Assembly (NCBI GenBank): GCA_028280525.1
Contig: JANQLR010000200.1
Coordinates: 1-32,486 of the forward strand
Source: Longimicrobiales bacterium
Lineage (GTDB): Bacteria; Gemmatimonadota; Gemmatimonadetes; Longimicrobiales; Gaopeijiaceae
DNA: 32,486 nucleotides
Direction of reading: 5' to 3'
Positions 22,853-32,004 of this stretch are shown here, one piece after another; within the stretch, counting starts at the first letter, position 1; every line of letters begins with the position of its first letter. The translations under genes and the position numbers were made by a program. The notes beneath the pieces are model-generated. The model was not told the DNA's origin, did no database searches, and was given only the letters and a program-made list of their open reading frames with translations.

Positions 22853-25381
22853 ATGCGCTCCACCCTCCTCCGCACCGCGGCGCTCCTCGCGCTCGCCCTC
22901 CTCCCCCTCGCCGGCCCCGCCGCGGCACAGGACGACGAGGGGCTCCCGACGATCGAATCGAAGGTCGAAGGGATGGAGAAGATCGACGGCTTCATCCCGC
23001 TCTACTGGGAGGCGGATGCGGGGAAGCTCTGGCTCGAGATCGGGCGCTGGGACGAGGAGATCCTGCACTACGTCTCCCTCCCGGCCGGGATGGGTCAGAA
23101 TGACCTGGGGCTCAACCGCGGCGACCTGCGCGGTTCGCAGGTGGTGGTCTTCGAGCGGGTGGGCCGGAAGGTCTTCATGAAGCAGCCGAACTACGGCTAC
23201 CGCGCCACGAGCGACGACCCCCTCGAGCGGAAGAGCGTGGACGACGGCTTCCCGGTCTCCATCCACTGGGGATGGACGGCGGCGGCGGAGACGGAGGACC
23301 GGGTCCTCGTGGACGCCACTGCGTTCTTCATGCGCGATGCGGCGAATGTGGCGGGGTCCCTTCGCGGTCAGGGGCAGGGCACCTTCCAGCTCGACGCCTC
23401 GCGCTCGGCGCCCTACCTGGAGCGGACGCGCGGCTTCCCGACGAACACGGAGGTGGAGTTGACGCTGACCTTCACCTCGAACCAGCCGGGTGGCCTCGTC
23501 CGCTCGGTGACGCCGACGGGGAATGCGCTCACCGTCCGACAGCACCACTCCTTCATCGAACTCCCGGAGATCGGATCGTACGAGCCGCGTCGCTTCGACC
23601 CCCGCGCGGGGTACGGGGCGGTGTCGTACATGGACTTCGCCGTGCCGATCGAGGAGCCGCTCGAGCAGCGCCGGATCCGTCGTCACAAGCTGGAGAAGCA
23701 GGACCCGAACGCGGCGATGAGCCCCGCGGTCGAGCCGATCGTGTACTACCTGGATCCGGGGACGCCGGAGCCGGTGCGGACGGCGCTCCTGGAGGGGGGT
23801 CGCTGGTGGAACGAGGCCTTCGAGGCGGCCGGCTTCATCGACGCCTTCCGGGTCGAGATGCTCCCCGCCGACGCCGACCCGATGGATGCGCGCTACAACG
23901 TGATCCAGTGGGTGCACCGCTCCACGCGCGGGTGGTCGTACGGCAACTCGATCGTCGATCCCCGCACCGGGGAGATTCTGAAGGGTCACGTCACCCTCGG
24001 CTCCCTCCGCGTGCGACAGGACCACATGATCGGGGAGGGGCTGACGGCGCCGTACGAGAACGGCGACGAGAACCCGCAGGACATCATGGACATGTCGCTG
24101 CTGCGCATCCGCCAGCTCTCCGCGCACGAGATCGGGCACACGATCGGGCTCAGCCACAACTACATCGCGAGCGCGCAGCGGGGCGCCGGTGACATGTCGG
24201 TCATGGACTACCCGCACCCCCGGATCGAGCTGACGAGCGGCGGGGAGATCGTGGTGACCGAGGCGTACGACCGCGCGATCGGCGAGTGGGACAAGACGGC
24301 GATCCAGTACGGCTACACCGACTTCCCCGAGGGGACCGACGAGACGGCGGAGCTCGATCGGATCCTGATGGAGGCGGCGGGCCGCGGCGTCACCTACATC
24401 ACCGATGCCGACGCGCGCGCTCCGGGCGGTGCGCACCCGGACGCCCACCTCTGGGACAACGGCGCCGACGTGGCCGCCGAGCTCGACCGGATGATGGATG
24501 TCCGCCGCGTCGCGCTGAACCGCTTCGACCTCTCGGCGATCAGGTCGGGCGACCCGCTGGCCACGATGGAGGAGGCGCTCGTCCCGCTCTACCTGCACCA
24601 CCGCTTCCAGATGGAGGCGACGACCAAGGTTGTGGGCGGGATGCACTACACCTACGCGCTGCGAGGGGACGGGCAGGAGCCGCTCCGGCCCGTCTCGGCG
24701 GAGGCCCAGGAGGCAGCGCTCGACGCCCTCATGCGGACCCTCGACCCGCAGGAGCTGCGGCTGCCGATGCGGATCCTCCAGAACCTGCCGCCCCGTCCTC
24801 CCGGGTACGGCGGGGGGCGCGAGCTCTTCCGGAAGTGGACGGCGCCCGTCTTCGACGCGGTCTCGCCCGCCGCTGCGGCCGGCGATGCGACGCTGAGCTT
24901 CCTCCTCCACCCGAACCGGATGGCGAGGCTCGTGCAGCAGAAGGCGATGCACGACGAGCTGCCGGGGATGGAGGAGCTCTTCGAGCAGCTCTGGGAGCGG
25001 CTCTGGGACACCCGTGCCGGCGACGCGTACGCGGCGGAGATCCAGCGGACGCTCCAGCACGCCCACATCGGTCACCTGATGCGCCTCGCGTCGGAGGCCG
25101 GGATGCCGCAGGTGCGGGCGATGGCCAGCTTCGAGCTGAATGGGATCGCTTCGCGACTGGAGGACCGGTTCGGCAACACGGCCCAGAACGCCTCCGACTT
25201 CCTCGCCATGCAGGAGATCGAGCGCTTCTTCGACCGCGACATGGAGCCGATCACCATCCCCGGCCAGCCGAACCTCCCGCCGGGGAGCCCGATCGGGCAG
25301 CCGCAGATGAAGTGGATCCTCCCGACGGCGACCGGGTGGATGATCTCGGCGGACGACGCGCTCCGCTGCGACTGGCACTGA
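22853..25381 (+). CDS. secreted zinc-dependent metalloprotease, DUF5117/DUF4953 type
   Basis: The 842-residue protein has a Sec signal peptide (residues 1-26, cleavage after AAAQ). An N-terminal beta-rich domain (DUF5117-like, about 30-220) is followed by a metzincin-like catalytic domain with HEIGHTIGLSHN: zinc ligands His425, His429 and His435 and general base Glu426. The Met-turn is probably SVMDYPHPR about 20 residues on. A C-terminal helical domain (about 530-842) completes the family architecture. It should act outside the cytoplasm on proteins or peptides. The ATG at 22853 has GGAG six bases upstream. A small membrane protein follows after a hairpin. Confidence 0.92.
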   Translation: MRSTLLRTAALLALALLPLAGPAAAQDDEGLPTIESKVEGMEKIDGFIPLYWEADAGKLWLEIGRWDEEILHYVSLPAGMGQNDLGLNRGDLRGSQVVVFERVGRKVFMKQPNYGYRATSDDPLERKSVDDGFPVSIHWGWTAAAETEDRVLVDATAFFMRDAANVAGSLRGQGQGTFQLDASRSAPYLERTRGFPTNTEVELTLTFTSNQPGGLVRSVTPTGNALTVRQHHSFIELPEIGSYEPRRFDPRAGYGAVSYMDFAVPIEEPLEQRRIRRHKLEKQDPNAAMSPAVEPIVYYLDPGTPEPVRTALLEGGRWWNEAFEAAGFIDAFRVEMLPADADPMDARYNVIQWVHRSTRGWSYGNSIVDPRTGEILKGHVTLGSLRVRQDHMIGEGLTAPYENGDENPQDIMDMSLLRIRQLSAHEIGHTIGLSHNYIASAQRGAGDMSVMDYPHPRIELTSGGEIVVTEAYDRAIGEWDKTAIQYGYTDFPEGTDETAELDRILMEAAGRGVTYITDADARAPGGAHPDAHLWDNGADVAAELDRMMDVRRVALNRFDLSAIRSGDPLATMEEALVPLYLHHRFQMEATTKVVGGMHYTYALRGDGQEPLRPVSAEAQEAALDALMRTLDPQELRLPMRILQNLPPRPPGYGGGRELFRKWTAPVFDAVSPAAAAGDATLSFLLHPNRMARLVQQKAMHDELPGMEELFEQLWERLWDTRAGDAYAAEIQRTLQHAHIGHLMRLASEAGMPQVRAMASFELNGIASRLEDRFGNTAQNASDFLAMQEIERFFDRDMEPITIPGQPNLPPGSPIGQPQMKWILPTATGWMISADDALRCDWH

Positions 25382-25424: not shown

Positions 25425-25667
25425 ATGATCGAAAACGCACCGACTCTGCTCGGAGGACTCGCCGGCGCGGCCCTCGTCCTGGGGGTCGCGCTCTTCCTCC
25501 TGCGCAGCTATCGGAAGGGCCTCCAATCCGAACGGGACGAGTATCTGGGAGCGATGGGCTCGCCGGCGCTCGAGGCGATGATGGAGGAGGCGAGGCGGCA
25601 GCGGGAGCTGCTCAATCGGCGCGAGGGCGGGGGCGAACGGGGCGGCCGTCCGCCGGCAGCGCCGTAG
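25425..25667 (+). CDS. small single-pass membrane protein
   Basis: An 80-residue protein with one membrane helix (about 8-27, LLGGLAGAALVLGVALFLL), then a basic and charged cytoplasmic helix (YRKGLQSERDEYLGAM ... MMEEARRQRELLNRRE) and a Gly/Pro-rich end. No ribosome binding site stronger than a weak GCGACG is visible before the ATG at 25425. No family is recognised. It may be co-transcribed with the metalloprotease if the hairpin between them is read through. Confidence 0.55.
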   Translation: MIENAPTLLGGLAGAALVLGVALFLLRSYRKGLQSERDEYLGAMGSPALEAMMEEARRQRELLNRREGGGERGGRPPAAP

Positions 25668-25712
25668 GGGGTCGCGAGGCACCCTTCGGCGAACGCCTCC
25701 GCGGATTCCTTC

Positions 25713-25740
25713 TTGACCCGCCGGAAGCACCGCGTGTAGC
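25713..25740 (+). promoter_or_regulatory. candidate promoter of the barrel protein gene
   Basis: TTGACC (25713-25718) and TGTAGC (25735-25740) are 16 bases apart. The first matches five of six -35 consensus positions, the second only three of six for -10. A transcript would start near 25747 and place the duplicated 28-base element in its first few bases. The match is modest. Confidence 0.3.
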
Positions 25741-25751
25741 GTTCGGGAGGT

Positions 25752-25779
25752 GAGTGTGTCAGGCCTCGGCCACCGACTC
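25752..25779 (+). repeat. 28-base duplicated leader element, copy A
   Basis: This stretch, with core GTGTGTCAGGCCTCGGCC, is 26/28 identical to 26619-26646. Both lie 35-45 bases upstream of a GGAGGA ribosome binding site of a gene for an exported protein, and both are followed by AACTCGAT (here 25790-25797). The inner GGCCTCGGCC is partly self-complementary. A 6-pair hairpin (25783-25788 with 25797-25802) lies between it and the ribosome binding site. Promoter, protein-binding leader and structured RNA are all possible. Confidence 0.6.
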
Positions 25780-25814
25780 GCCGTTCGAGAACTCGATCGA
25801 ACGGAGGAGACTCG

Positions 25815-26501
25815 GTGACCCGAGGCTTTCGTGTATCTGGCGGTCCGCGCAGGACTGCCCTGCTGACCGCCCTCGCGGTGGCCGTCGGGGGACTGGCGCT
25901 CTCCGGGCACCCGCTCTCGGCGCAGGCGCCCGCCTTCGCCGGCCCGCCCCCCGCGGCGGACACGGCCGAGGGTCCCGTTCCGGCCTTCGTCGGTGAGGTG
26001 GGCGAGTCCGTCGCGGAGACCCCGACCGGGATCTGGTGGGGCTTCGGCGTCGGCGGGGGCTCTCTCCGCTTCACCTGCGACCTCTGCGCGCGGGAGCGTG
26101 ATCGAGGCCCGACGCTCTACGCGGCGGTGGGAGCCTACGCGGCTCCGGGCCTCCGCGTCGGGATGGAGGGGGGCGGGTGGACGCGGGACGACGGCGCGGT
26201 GCGCGAGGAGATGTACCGCGCCGGGCTGACCGGTTTCCTCCACCCGGACCCGGAGAGCGGCTTCCACGTCCTCGCGGGGCTCTCCTGGGTGGGGTACCGG
26301 GCGGACGACATCCGCTACGACTCGGGCGCGCTCTCGGTCGGGCTGGGGTGGGAGTTCGAGGTCGTGCCCGGGTGGGCGGTCGGGAACGCCGCGCGCATCG
26401 ACGCGGCCTCCTTCGGGAGCTTCCAGAACGACGACGATCGGGTCGCCGAGGATGTGGGGCTCTCGCTCGTTCGCTTCGAGGTGACGGTGCGGCGGCGGTA
26501 G
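25815..26501 (+). CDS. outer-membrane beta-barrel-like protein
   Basis: A 228-residue exported protein with a long signal peptide (basic residues 1-13, hydrophobic 15-30, probable cleavage after LSAQA). The mature part has alternating short strands with Gly/aromatic pattern (IWWGFGVGGGSLRF, GPTLYAAVGAYAAPGLRVGMEGGG, FHVLAGLSWVGY, YDSGALSVGLGWEFEVV), typical of small eight- to ten-strand barrels, and a CDLC pair at 88-91. The GTG at 25815 has GGAGGA six bases upstream. It carries leader element copy A. Function is unknown. Confidence 0.68.
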   Translation: MTRGFRVSGGPRRTALLTALAVAVGGLALSGHPLSAQAPAFAGPPPAADTAEGPVPAFVGEVGESVAETPTGIWWGFGVGGGSLRFTCDLCARERDRGPTLYAAVGAYAAPGLRVGMEGGGWTRDDGAVREEMYRAGLTGFLHPDPESGFHVLAGLSWVGYRADDIRYDSGALSVGLGWEFEVVPGWAVGNAARIDAASFGSFQNDDDRVAEDVGLSLVRFEVTVRRR

Positions 26502-26618
26502 GGACGGAACGGGTCCGCTGGGGGAGGTCGTCCTCCGCTGGACCTCGGATCGGATGCGTCCTCCCGGCGAGTCCGGCACCGATCCTGCAGGACGTTTCGA
26601 CACGACATTTCATGCGGA

Positions 26619-26646
26619 GAGTGTGTCAGGCCCCGGCCACCGGCTC
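26619..26646 (+). repeat. 28-base duplicated leader element, copy B
   Basis: This copy differs from copy A at two positions (core GTGTGTCAGGCCCCGGCC). It is followed by AACTCGAT at 26667-26674, 20 bases after the element compared with 10 in copy A, and then the ribosome binding site of the lipoprotein gene. A small ATCGA/TCGAT hairpin can form in the intervening sequence. No promoter is obvious upstream. Confidence 0.6.
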
Positions 26647-26687
26647 CCGCCTTTATCGAAGGCTTCAACTCGATGGAGGACGGTCCG

Positions 26688-27989
26688 ATGTCCGGCCCAA
26701 CGCAGCCCCTCGCTCTCGCGGCGCCCCCCTCTCGAGGCGCACGCCTGTTTCGCTGGGCCCTCGGGCTCGTCGTCTTCGCCGTCGCGGTCTGGCTCTCCGC
26801 CTGCAGCGACGGCGACACGGGGACCACGCCGACCGCGGACGGCCTCCCCGTCCCCTCGGGTGCGCTCTTCGCTCAGGCGCACGGGATCTGGGAGCCGAGC
26901 GGCACCGACACCTGCAGTCAGGCGATCCACGACGCCTACTCGACCGTCGGGCCCGACGGGGTCGTCTACCCGACCTGGCACCCCCCGGTCGACCCGATCA
27001 CCGGGTGCACCTTCGGCCACGAGCACGGGCGCGACCCGCGCGAGTCCGACCTGTATGCGGAGGTCGGCGCGATCCCCTTCGGCTACGCGAACGAGCACCT
27101 GATGGAGAGCGGTTTCGGGGCCGAGCGCCACGAGGACCACGTAGGGCACAAGATCGAGTGGGAGAACGACGTCGAGATGCGGCTGGGCGACGGCGCCTCC
27201 GCCGTCTTCAGCGTGACGTGCGACATCCTCGCGAAGCTGCATCAGGGAACGCACTCGCCGGACGCCTACACGAACAACCTGCACGAGGTCGTCTACCACA
27301 TCCGCTGCACCGACGGGACCGGCTTCAGTGCAACGCTCCTGACCCCGATCGGGCGCGCGGGTGAGCTGGTCGTGGCGTGTGATCGCGGCGACCGGGTGTC
27401 TGCCGGGACGGCGAACCCGTCGATCTCGCCGGACGGGGGGGGCAAGCGGGCGATCCCGGCGATGGGGTGCGTCGAGTCTCGGGTGCTCCAGGAGGCCGCC
27501 TCGGGTGGCCGTCCCCGCTTCGACTCCGCGCTCCGCGAGTCGTGGGAGATCAACGGGCGGCTGCGCGCGGAAGGAGGGCGCACCCTCGTCTCCTTCAACC
27601 CCTACTTCCAGGTCTTCAACCCGAGCCGCTACTTCGACCCGAATCAGGCGCGGGCGATCGGGCGACCCATCGACCTCTGCCATCGCCCCGAGATCGCCGG
27701 GCGAGACCGGTGCGAGGGCGTCGGGGCCGATGTGACCTGGGACGACCCGCGCTCCCCCTTCGACGGGACGCGGCGCTTCGTCGACATCAACGCCAACAAC
27801 GTCCGCAACGCGGACGGCCCGACGATCTGGTACACCGACCCCCTCGGGCTGAACGGTTCGCCCTTCCCCTTCCCGGGCTCGATCCGGCAGTGGATCGCCG
27901 TCCACGACAACGAGGGCGTGGACCTGCACGGCCCGCAGATCGGAAAGGACCGGGACTACGACGCGGAGGGGGTTCGTGCGCCGAACTGA
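26688..27989 (+). CDS. multi-histidine lipoprotein of unknown family
   Basis: A 433-residue protein with a lipoprotein signal: basic residues, hydrophobic helix 22-38, then WLSAC with Cys39. A Ser/Thr/Gly linker leads to a mature domain with FGHEHGRDP (His111, His113), HEDHVGHKIEWEND (His148, His151, His154) and about eight cysteines (for example 76, 107, 175), suggesting a metal site with disulfides. I do not recognise a family. The ATG at 26688 has GGAGGA seven bases upstream; an in-frame ATG at 26673 overlaps that site and is unlikely. It carries leader element copy B and runs 14 bases into the next gene. Confidence 0.75.
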   Translation: MSGPTQPLALAAPPSRGARLFRWALGLVVFAVAVWLSACSDGDTGTTPTADGLPVPSGALFAQAHGIWEPSGTDTCSQAIHDAYSTVGPDGVVYPTWHPPVDPITGCTFGHEHGRDPRESDLYAEVGAIPFGYANEHLMESGFGAERHEDHVGHKIEWENDVEMRLGDGASAVFSVTCDILAKLHQGTHSPDAYTNNLHEVVYHIRCTDGTGFSATLLTPIGRAGELVVACDRGDRVSAGTANPSISPDGGGKRAIPAMGCVESRVLQEAASGGRPRFDSALRESWEINGRLRAEGGRTLVSFNPYFQVFNPSRYFDPNQARAIGRPIDLCHRPEIAGRDRCEGVGADVTWDDPRSPFDGTRRFVDINANNVRNADGPTIWYTDPLGLNGSPFPFPGSIRQWIAVHDNEGVDLHGPQIGKDRDYDAEGVRAPN

Positions 27990-28894: not shown

Positions 28895-29284
28895 ATGCCC
28901 ACAGATCGCACCTCCGACGCCGGCTCGTCCGACGCCGCGCCTCACCTGGGCGAGCTGGAGGAGCTCGTCCTCCTCGCCGTTCTCCGCCTCGGCGCCGACG
29001 CCTACGGTGCCGCGCTTCGAAAGGAGCTGCGGGAGCGGGCGGGACGAAGCGTTTCGGTCTCGACGATCTACGTGACGCTCGTCCGGCTCGAGGAGAAGGG
29101 ACTGGTCCGTTCCGAGATGGGTGCCCCGACCGCGGTCCGGGGAGGACGCGCGAAGCGGATCTTCGCGCTGACCCCGGCTGCGGTCACCGCACTCGAGGCG
29201 ATGCGAGGCCGACGGGAGCGGATGTGGGAGGGGCTCGACGATGCGGCGGAGGCCGTCCGACGCGCGGGGAAAGGCGGGAGGTGA
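28895..29284 (+). CDS. PadR family transcriptional regulator
   Basis: A 129-residue regulator. The winged helix-turn-helix spans about residues 18-76, with LGELEELVLLAVLRLGADAYGAAL, the recognition helix STIYVTLVRLEEKGLV and the wing GGRAKRIFALT; the rest is the C-terminal dimerisation helix. PadR proteins next to ADOP permeases are a common pairing in Acidobacteriota and Gemmatimonadota and are expected to control that operon. The ATG at 28895 follows a CTCCTT-rich leader with no clear Shine-Dalgarno. Its stop overlaps the permease start (GTGA). Confidence 0.93.
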   Translation: MPTDRTSDAGSSDAAPHLGELEELVLLAVLRLGADAYGAALRKELRERAGRSVSVSTIYVTLVRLEEKGLVRSEMGAPTAVRGGRAKRIFALTPAAVTALEAMRGRRERMWEGLDDAAEAVRRAGKGGR

Positions 29285-32004
29285 GGCGTCCACCGCGCCT
29301 CCTGGAGTGGTGGCTCCTGCGGCGGCTGCCCCCGGACTTCCGGGGAGCCGTGGCCGGGGATCTGCAGGAGGAGTTCACGGAGAGGGCCGAGCGGTCGACG
29401 CCGTTCGCGGGACTCCGTGCGCGGATCTGGTACGCGGTGCAGGTGGTGAGCCTCGATGCGAGCGCGCTCGCGCGGGTGACGGGGACGACGAATGGGGAGT
29501 GGGCGCGGGATGAAGGCCAGCCCACGGCGGAGCGAGTCACGAGGAGCGGTGTGATGGACATGCTGATGCAGGACGTGCGCTACGCCGTGCGACGACTCCT
29601 GAAGAGCCCCGGCTTCACCCTGGTGGCGATCCTCTCCCTCGGACTGGGGATTGGGGCGAACTCGGCGCTCTTCACCATGGTCAACGCGGTCTTCCGGCAG
29701 GACACGGGGATCTCGGAGCCGGACCGCGTTGCACAGATCTACTGGAACGGGACGACGCCGTACTGGTCGATCAGCTGGAGCTGGTACCGGGGGATGCGGG
29801 ACGACCTGACGGACGTCTTCTCGCATACCTCGGCGACCCGGCTGCGCATGGCACGCACCGAACCCACGGGCGACGCCCTGGTCAGTTCGCTCCGGGTTTC
29901 GGGAGACTACTTCGGAGCGATCGGCGTGGCCCCGCGACTCGGGCGCACCTTCGAGCCGGGGGCCGAGACGGACGTAGAGACGGGGGCGGCCGTCGTCGTG
30001 CTCTCCCACGACTTCTGGACGCGGGTTCTGGCGGGCGATCCGGAGGTGATCGGGTCGACGCTTCGGATCGAGGCGACGCCGCACACGGTGCTCGGTGTGC
30101 TCCCGGAGGGGTTCACCGGGCAGATGGCCGGCGTCGAGGTCGACATCTACCTCCCGGACTTCGCCGCGGTCGCGAGTCCCGGAACCGACAACCTGATGGG
30201 CGTCGTTCGTCTGCAACCCGGGGTCTCCGCCGATCAGGCCCGCGCCGGGCTCGCGCGCCTCGCGCAGGATCTGAACGTGGGCCGTCCGGAGGACCGCACG
30301 CCGATCGCCTTCACCCTCGTGCCGCAGAGCGAGGTGTACGTCATCCCGGCGATCGACCCCATCGCGCGACAGATCGCCGGACTCCTCTTCCTGGTGGTGG
30401 GGCTCGTCCTCGTGATCGCCTGTACCAACCTCGCCTCCTTCCTGCTGACCCGCGCCGCGGATCGTCGCCGGGAGTTCGCGGTGCGGAGGGCGGTGGGTGC
30501 GAGCCGGGGGCGTGTGGTCGGCCAGCTCCTCGTGGAGTCGCTCCTCCTCGCCGGGCTCGGCGGGGTCGTCGGGATCACGCTGGGGCAGCTGGCGCTGAAT
30601 GCGTCCCTCGCCGTGGACCTTCCCGTCCCCGTCTCTCTCCGTCTCGACACGAGCATCGATCTCTTCGTACTTGGGACCACCCTCGGCGCGACGGTCGTCG
30701 CAGGTATCCTCTTCGGCCTCTTCCCGGCGGTGACGGCCGGACGCGAGGACGTCGCGCCCGTCCTTCGGGACGAGTCGACCGGAGCGGGTGGAGGCCGCGG
30801 CAAGGTGTCGCTGCGCGGCGCCCTCGTGGTGGCCCAGGTCTCCCTCTCCCTCGCACTCCTGATCGGCGCCGGCTTCTTCCTGCGCTCGCTCCTCTCCATG
30901 ACCCGGGTGGACCCCGGCTTCGACCGGGAGGACCGCGCCGTCGTCACCGTCGACCCGGGCAACAGCGGCTACGACCTGGCCGAGAGCCGCCGGATCATGG
31001 ACGACGCGCTGCGCATGGTGAGGGAGATGCCCGAGATCGAGTCGGCCACGATGGGGAACCGCGTGCCGATGCAGACCTGGATCTGGAGGTCCGGGATCCG
31101 CCGCAGCGATCAGCCCTTCACGGACACCCGCGAGTACGCCTTCCCACAGATCGCCTACGTCACCGACGGGTACTTCGAGACGCTCGGGATCGACATCGTT
31201 TCCGGCCGTCCGATCGGGGAGGAGGACGTGGCGGGCGCACCCCCGGTCGTGGTCGTGAACCGGGCGCTCGCCCGGGAGCTCTGGCCGGACGATCCCGAGG
31301 GTGCCGTCGGCCGGAGCGTGCTGCTCCAGAACTTCCCGGACAGCGTCGCGACGGTCGTGGGGATCGCGCCCGACGTGAAGGTCACGACGCTGGACGAGTC
31401 ACCCACCACCTACATGTACCAGGCCCAGCGGCAGGTCGGGGTGCAGTCCGCCCTCCTCGTCGCGAGGCCCCGGCCGGGGAGCGGGAGCGGTGACGGGGCG
31501 ACGAAGGCGCTGGCCGAACGGCTGCGGCGCGAGATCAAGACGATTGATCCGGACATGTACGTCCACACCGCGACCACCGTGGAGACCATGACGGGCACGA
31601 CGCTCTTCATTCCCCGGGTGGGCGCCGCCCTCCTCGCCCTCTTCGGCGCCCTCGCCGTCGTGATGGCCTCGATCGGCCTCTACGGCCTCGTCGCATTCGG
31701 GGTGAAGCGGCGGGAGAAGGAGGTGGGGATTCGTCTTTCTCTCGGGGCCGATCCGGCCCGGATCGTCCGCACCATGATGGCGGCGGGGACTCGGCTCGTC
31801 GTGATCGGCGTGGCGATCGGACTGGCGCTCGGGGTCGGCGCGGGGGCGCTCCTGGAGGACTTCCTCTTCGGGATCTCGCGCTTCGACCCGATCACCCTGG
31901 TGGCGGTGCCGCTCCTCCTCCTCGCGATCGCGGTGCTCGCCTCGTGGATCCCGGCGCGGCGCGCCGCCTCGATCGACCCGGTGGAGTCGCTGCGCCGGGA
32001 GTAG
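29281..32004 (+). CDS. ADOP-type ABC transporter permease (FtsX/MacB-like, duplicated)
   Basis: The 907-residue protein has an N-terminal prefix (1-95, with LLRRLPPDFRGAVAGDLQEEF) typical of the ADOP group and then two MacB-type units. Unit one has DVRYAVRRLLKSPGFTLVAILSLGLGIGANSALF (98-131), a periplasmic domain and an FtsX domain (about 358-500) ending with the VRRAVGASRGR loop. Unit two has a helix at about 510-535, a periplasmic domain and an FtsX domain from about 780 with REKEVGIRLSLGADPARIV. No ATPase is encoded alongside, as usual for the group. The GTG at 29281 overlaps the PadR stop as GTGA. Substrate is unknown. Confidence 0.93.
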   Translation: MRRPPRLLEWWLLRRLPPDFRGAVAGDLQEEFTERAERSTPFAGLRARIWYAVQVVSLDASALARVTGTTNGEWARDEGQPTAERVTRSGVMDMLMQDVRYAVRRLLKSPGFTLVAILSLGLGIGANSALFTMVNAVFRQDTGISEPDRVAQIYWNGTTPYWSISWSWYRGMRDDLTDVFSHTSATRLRMARTEPTGDALVSSLRVSGDYFGAIGVAPRLGRTFEPGAETDVETGAAVVVLSHDFWTRVLAGDPEVIGSTLRIEATPHTVLGVLPEGFTGQMAGVEVDIYLPDFAAVASPGTDNLMGVVRLQPGVSADQARAGLARLAQDLNVGRPEDRTPIAFTLVPQSEVYVIPAIDPIARQIAGLLFLVVGLVLVIACTNLASFLLTRAADRRREFAVRRAVGASRGRVVGQLLVESLLLAGLGGVVGITLGQLALNASLAVDLPVPVSLRLDTSIDLFVLGTTLGATVVAGILFGLFPAVTAGREDVAPVLRDESTGAGGGRGKVSLRGALVVAQVSLSLALLIGAGFFLRSLLSMTRVDPGFDREDRAVVTVDPGNSGYDLAESRRIMDDALRMVREMPEIESATMGNRVPMQTWIWRSGIRRSDQPFTDTREYAFPQIAYVTDGYFETLGIDIVSGRPIGEEDVAGAPPVVVVNRALARELWPDDPEGAVGRSVLLQNFPDSVATVVGIAPDVKVTTLDESPTTYMYQAQRQVGVQSALLVARPRPGSGSGDGATKALAERLRREIKTIDPDMYVHTATTVETMTGTTLFIPRVGAALLALFGALAVVMASIGLYGLVAFGVKRREKEVGIRLSLGADPARIVRTMMAAGTRLVVIGVAIGLALGVGAGALLEDFLFGISRFDPITLVAVPLLLLAIAVLASWIPARRAASIDPVESLRRE

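Follow-up and report, generated by a model that had tools for sequence, protein, structure and literature searches.

A short predicted RNA hairpin, repeated before two consecutive genes for exported proteins in a Longimicrobiales genome, is a candidate leader RNA

Results

The stretch of Longimicrobiales DNA analyzed here (contig JANQLR010000200.1, 32,486 nucleotides; hereafter "the window") carries a 28-base sequence twice, each time shortly before one of two consecutive genes for exported proteins, and this sequence is probably the core of a cis-acting leader RNA that is restricted to this lineage and belongs to an operon for envelope proteins. The element's sequence, its common sense-strand fold, its position and its conservation were all computed and are described below; from them it would appear to be transcribed and to act as an RNA on translation or on the fate of the mRNA.

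The two window copies and the genes that they precede

The two copies lie on the + strand at 25752-25779 (copy 1, W1) and 26619-26646 (copy 2, W2), and together have the sequence GAGTGTGTCAGGCC[T/C]CGGCCACCG[A/G]CTC. They are identical at 26 of 28 bases and have the same orientation, as a first-pass annotation of this DNA had claimed. When leaders were shuffled, the top 28-base match over 2000 pairs was 21 (mean 17.2), and only about 0.003 pairs matching at 26 or more of 28 positions are expected by chance in the whole window. Both copies are followed by AACTCGAT, at 25790-25797 after a gap of 10 bases (copy 1) and at 26667-26674 after a gap of 20 (copy 2), again as had been noted. The GGAGGA ribosome-binding sites, at 25803-25808 and 26675-26680 on the + strand, had been placed 35-45 bases beyond the repeat, which is wrong; they are 23 and 28 bases past its end (51 and 56 from its start), respectively. 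Two further features were seen near copy 1: another perfect inverted repeat (CCGTTCGA/TCGAACGG, 25784-25806) lies between this copy and its ribosome-binding site, abuts the GGAGGA and was seen in the folds, and a terminator-like stem followed by T-rich bases (25811-25824; 0.4 expected by chance) overlaps the GTG start of the barrel-like gene.

The first of the two genes (P0001, 25815-26501, + strand, GTG start) encodes an exported protein that belongs to no Pfam family and for which "barrel-like" is a putative label from the earlier, sequence-only annotation. The second (P0002, 26688-27989, + strand) encodes a histidine-rich lipoprotein; its open reading frame is listed as starting at 26673, and the likely start is the ATG at 26688, which suits the second ribosome-binding site and lies five codons past that first in-frame ATG. 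A third exported-protein gene (P0003, 27976-28647, + strand) overlaps the lipoprotein stop codon, and its homologue adjoins the lipoprotein gene in 9 of 12 relatives' loci. The barrel-like protein and the lipoprotein show no relation, in agreement with the first-pass annotation, and their genes are neighbors in a conserved arrangement that is found in 13 of 121 family genomes. Lipoprotein homologues are 51-71% identical in our alignment A2 (which omits L057, whose match has an internal stop, and L058-L061, which are partial or weak) and share many invariant histidines and cysteines. Searches with P0001 and P0002 gave no Pfam or PDB-profile match and no convincing NCBIfam match, and a single-sequence structure model of the lipoprotein (pLDDT 32.7) was unusable. 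The same genome has a second lipoprotein gene (G000:C79:18600-19880; L062, L129) that is 52% identical, with no hairpin and no barrel homologue in the 7 kb analyzed there. Upstream, the operon is flanked by a DUF5117/DUF4953 met-zincin gene (22853-25381); among 12 loci from relatives, which have short flanks, two contain pieces of a homologue of this gene on the upstream side of the barrel gene. Downstream lies an ADOP-type duplicated permease gene (MacB/FtsX; 29224-32004).

Additional copies lie before the same genes in related genomes

The genome from which the window comes is a draft of 4,148,742 bases in 427 contigs that is 94.75% complete. Scanning it with the 28-mer, allowing up to 3 mismatches, found the two window copies alone, and its 13-base core, searched with 2 mismatches or fewer, occurred at 22 places, compared to 67 for the reversed control. 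Among 121 genomes of the family, the 28-mer matched in two and yielded one extra exact-length copy, in genome G061, where it stands in front of a barrel-gene homologue; among 395 genomes drawn from the phylum only the genome of the window matched, and an exact scan of genome contigs returned a single record, G061 contig CAKZOQ010000338.1. Comparison of the gap between the barrel and lipoprotein genes across relatives then revealed one copy with a longer center in each of G045 and G042, which belong to the same genus as the window genome. There are in all five copies in four genomes and two genera (the three copies outside the window come from three relatives of the same family); their orientation is uniform, and each stands before a homologue of the barrel or the lipoprotein gene.

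A covariance model of the five copies scores them at 59.9-67.4 bits, values that are high by construction because these same copies went into the model; the next-best matches were 26.6 bits in the 121 family genomes and 29.1 bits in the 395 phylum genomes, and in 154 genomes of the order nothing besides the known copies passed an E-value of 0.0001. Sixteen loci among the weaker (26-29-bit) matches were inspected; all lie in long stop-free frames, which are also frequent in random GC-rich DNA, their sequences are unlike the element, and we judge them to be chance matches. The pattern TGTCAGGCC-N-GGCCACCG occurs at 8 places in 7 of the 121 genomes, of which five are the element copies and three (in G067, G086 and G087) lack the outer arms. 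GTGTCA-N-ACCGGCTCCC occurs at 14 places in 13 genomes, four of them element copies and ten that fold differently. Seven stretches were found in viral contigs; they represent two sequence types, lack the outer arms and fold in other ways, and we attribute them to chance as well. Phage and plasmid records contained no match to the element.

The distribution is patchy: three of six same-genus genomes carry the element, as do three of the 13 genomes in which both genes are adjacent (the window genome, G042 and G045), and G061 is the fourth bearer, with its copy before a barrel gene inside which the contig ends. G046 has both genes and no element. Only the window genome has the element before both genes. 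Such patchiness, and the case of G046, would suit a functionless small mobile or duplicated repeat that was copied beside the operon. We consider this improbable: the covariance search found no copies of comparable score elsewhere in the element-bearing genomes, the orientation is invariably sense and before a gene, and the element was kept across genera while its flanks and synonymous sites drifted (below). An interspersed REP-like repeat should have many copies at unrelated sites, and here there are two in the genome. The first-pass annotation held that an absence of other copies genome-wide would suggest a chance or recombinational duplicate, and literally no others are present in the genome; yet the element precedes the same genes in other species, which makes a chance or one-off duplicate unlikely.

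How strongly is the element conserved relative to its surroundings? The five copies, from two genera, have 27 invariant columns out of 53 in their alignment, and only 7-18 of 40 positions match in their flanks. Third codon positions at identical residues agree at 0.58-0.63 in the lipoprotein gene (window compared to G046, G045 and G042) and at 0.53 in the barrel gene (window compared to G061). The near letter-for-letter retention of the element beside drifted flanks and third positions indicates that it is under selection. The barrel-side copies have GGTGAG in common and the lipoprotein-side copies GGAGAG; this suggests, as a hint from five copies, that both positions are old and that neither is a fresh copy made within the window.

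The repeat is the core of a predicted RNA hairpin

RNAalifold, unprompted, gave a single 13-pair fold for the five copies, in which CGG/CCG is followed by a single bulged base, then by GAGY/RCUC, an internal loop of GU/CG, GU/AC, a bulge of CA and an upper stem. This five-copy comparison makes the 28-mer the central part of a predicted RNA hairpin of 34-39 bases whose internal loops are invariant. Single folds agree with the consensus in both window copies (both on the + strand): copy 1 (25749-25782) is predicted to form a GGUGAGU/ACUCGCC stem, the GU/CG internal loop, GU/AC, the CA bulge and GGC(CUCG)GCC, with its outermost stem slipped by one base from the consensus, and copy 2 (26614-26650) to form GCGG/CCGC, a bulged A, GAGU/GCUC, the same internal loop, GU/AC and CA bulge, and GGC(CCCG)GCC. 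All five short sense RNAs take the consensus shape when folded singly, with the centroid equal to the minimum free energy structure, and in all five the sense strand is more stable than the antisense. The folding energies give modest z-scores, -2.67, -1.38, -0.80, -2.28 and -1.99 for the sense strands and -0.55, 0.16, 0.58, -1.78 and -0.57 for the antisense strands. An inner TCGG-CCA-CCGA hairpin had also been considered and accounts for both differences between the window copies; it was dropped because it is absent in G045 and G042, and the RNAalifold fold replaced it.

Base-pair variation among the copies is sparse: no pair has changed on both sides, 10 of the 13 pairs never vary, and 70 and 384 of 500 shuffles had as many paired cells and as high a covariation score, respectively, so these values are not clearly above those of shuffles. 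Pair 14-39 is the sole pair that varies with pairing kept (U-A in one copy, U-G in three and C-G in one), and a U-G pair exists in the sense transcript only, being no pair in DNA. The upper stem has three pairs in W1, W2 and G061, four in G045 and five in G042, with a four-base loop throughout. Changes in stem length that keep both the pairing and the loop size speak for RNA, and their symmetry is extra support for the predicted structure that a covariation count does not see.

The inverted repeats within the element (GGCC...GGCC arms and GAG...CTC ends) could instead belong to a DNA operator, a protein site that couples both genes at transcription and whose GGCC palindrome is read by a dimeric regulator; the narrow link to a single operon would suit a local regulator. 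We think this unlikely, given that the arms are separated by 2, 2, 2, 4 and 6 bases, which is unusual for a dimer site, that the U-G pair has no counterpart in DNA, that in G042 and G045 the element is intergenic, and that two other copies lie downstream of a sigma-54-like site (below). A conserved small upstream peptide is a far more doubtful alternative still, one to which we give almost no weight: a GTG-TGT-CAG frame does run through the window copies (ORF 25754-25996), but the 2-base differences in center length between copies shift the reading frame.

The element is probably transcribed in most cases

No sigma-70-type site was found in 25600-26700. A sigma-54-like site, CGGCACCGATCCTGCA (GG-N10-GC, 26574-26589, + strand; shuffle P 0.002), is present 30 bases upstream of copy 2, and another is present 17 bases upstream of the G061 copy (P 0.000, 500 shuffles); none precedes copy 1 (P 0.54). 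These and the following sites were scored against a sigma-54 consensus. Sites at shuffle P ≤0.01 were found in 10 of the 15 barrel-gene upstream regions scanned (19 barrel matches less the four weak ones, L019-L022), and the window genome encodes rpoN (423 bits). This points to possible sigma-54 control of the operon across the family. The ten regions, with strong sites such as GGCACGGGGCTTGCA, are those upstream of the barrel homologues in L005-L008, L010, L011, L013-L015 and L018.

If the sigma-54-like sites are real, transcription would start about 14 bases (copy 2) and about 2 bases (G061) before the hairpin, which would place the element inside the transcript. In both G042 and G045 the element is placed past the stop codon of the barrel gene and so lies between the two genes; in G042 it begins about 20 bases after that codon, within the 82 bases that separate it from the start of the lipoprotein match. 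From these upstream sites and between-gene positions, the element is probably transcribed in four of the five cases. The element appears to fit badly as a promoter for an alternative sigma factor, since a sigma-54-like site lies upstream of it before copy 2 and in G061 and since it is intergenic in G042.

These positions also bear on the main alternative within RNA, namely a hairpin that affects mRNA stability or processing by protecting or cutting the transcript between the genes and that sets the ratio of the two proteins and senses no signal. The intergenic location in G042 and G045, the proximity to the predicted 5' end in G061 and the stable fold are all consistent with such a role, whereas the invariant unpaired GU, CA and CG and the 27 invariant columns exceed what a plain stabilizing stem needs. 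We regard it as possible, if not favored; the RNA readings overlap, this one being an RNA element as well, and our confidences in the different readings are not meant to add up to one.

Predicted pairing with the ribosome-binding site

The end of the element is 23-39 bases upstream of the ribosome-binding site (a weaker site in G042). When whole leaders of 99-127 bases are folded, the free minimum is a structure other than the hairpin, in which the hairpin's 3' arm pairs with the ribosome-site/start region; the probability of the hairpin's lower stem is 0.00-0.04 in all five. Contacts as strong between the 3' arm and the ribosome-site/start region arose in fractions of 0.00 (W1), 0.04 (W2), 0.34 (G061), 0.01 (G045) and 0.02 (G042) of 200 shuffles. 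Against 140 other GGAGG start regions (mechanical picks of putative gene starts), the isolated duplex of 3' arm and ribosome-binding site was matched in strength in 0.05 for copy 1 and in 0.70, 0.97, 0.91 and 0.74 for the others, with a combined P of 0.67. The shuffle control speaks for an exclusive choice between the two folds (four of five copies), and the start-region control speaks against it (one of five, at 0.05). A switch is plausible but unproven because CUCC pairs with any GGAGG. The 3' arm (ACCGRCUCCCG) may either close the hairpin or pair with the ribosome-binding/start region, and translation control through the ribosome site is, on these models, one tentative route by which the element could act.

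Discussion

The first-pass annotation had offered a promoter for an alternative sigma factor, a transcription-factor site or a structured leader RNA as ways to couple the two genes. Comparison among copies favors the leader RNA, a conserved sense-strand structure being present in the computed folds of all five; the promoter appears to fit badly, and the transcription-factor site would have to accommodate arm spacings of 2, 4 and 6. In the leader-RNA reading, each 28-mer would be the core of a hairpin in the untranslated leader or intergenic gap directly before the gene that it serves, and the hairpin would set the post-transcriptional output of the barrel-like protein and the lipoprotein from one envelope operon. 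Because the apical loop varies, the part that is recognized may be the invariant internal loops, where GU faces CG and CA is bulged. A more specific version makes the element a very small sensory RNA, in which the GUGUCA/ACCG loops are a pocket for a ligand, an ion or a protein and hairpin closure frees the ribosome-binding site; installed twice, it would let two unrelated envelope proteins switch in step, possibly in response to a metal that the histidine-rich lipoprotein handles. This version is speculative, and we hold it to be rather unlikely.

Is the element related to any known system? We know of no named motif with its sequence, in line with the first-pass annotation, and at the gathering score Rfam 15 has no match in the window. 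Permissive Rfam searches gave one match in L003, L064 and L065 and three in window positions 25690-26700, all far below gathering and none credible. We recognized no publication on the element by title, which is not proof of its absence from print. Like known cis-regulatory leader RNAs (riboswitches and protein-bound 5'-UTR hairpins), the element is a conserved hairpin of small size whose internal loops do not vary; it is located shortly before a ribosome-binding site, has the same orientation throughout and is tied to one operon. Unlike them it has no Rfam 15 match, its two copies serve two consecutive genes, and its distribution is very narrow. Sigma-54-controlled envelope genes offer a second comparison, since 10 of 15 barrel upstream regions have a GGCAC/TTGC-type site and rpoN is present; the hairpin differs in being separate from such promoters, as it is found with and without an adjacent sigma-54-like site. 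One published account (PMC3162934) connects sigma-54 with regulation of the exterior of bacteria, including lipoproteins.

If confirmed, the element would be a new leader RNA of a known general kind. If it does act as an RNA, it would be a leader element not described before, from a lineage that is little studied and mostly uncultured, and a single module placed before two consecutive, unrelated envelope genes, and it would tie an operon of unassigned function, whose conserved histidine-rich lipoprotein has no Pfam or PDB relatives, to a specific signal and so provide a handle on the role of that operon.
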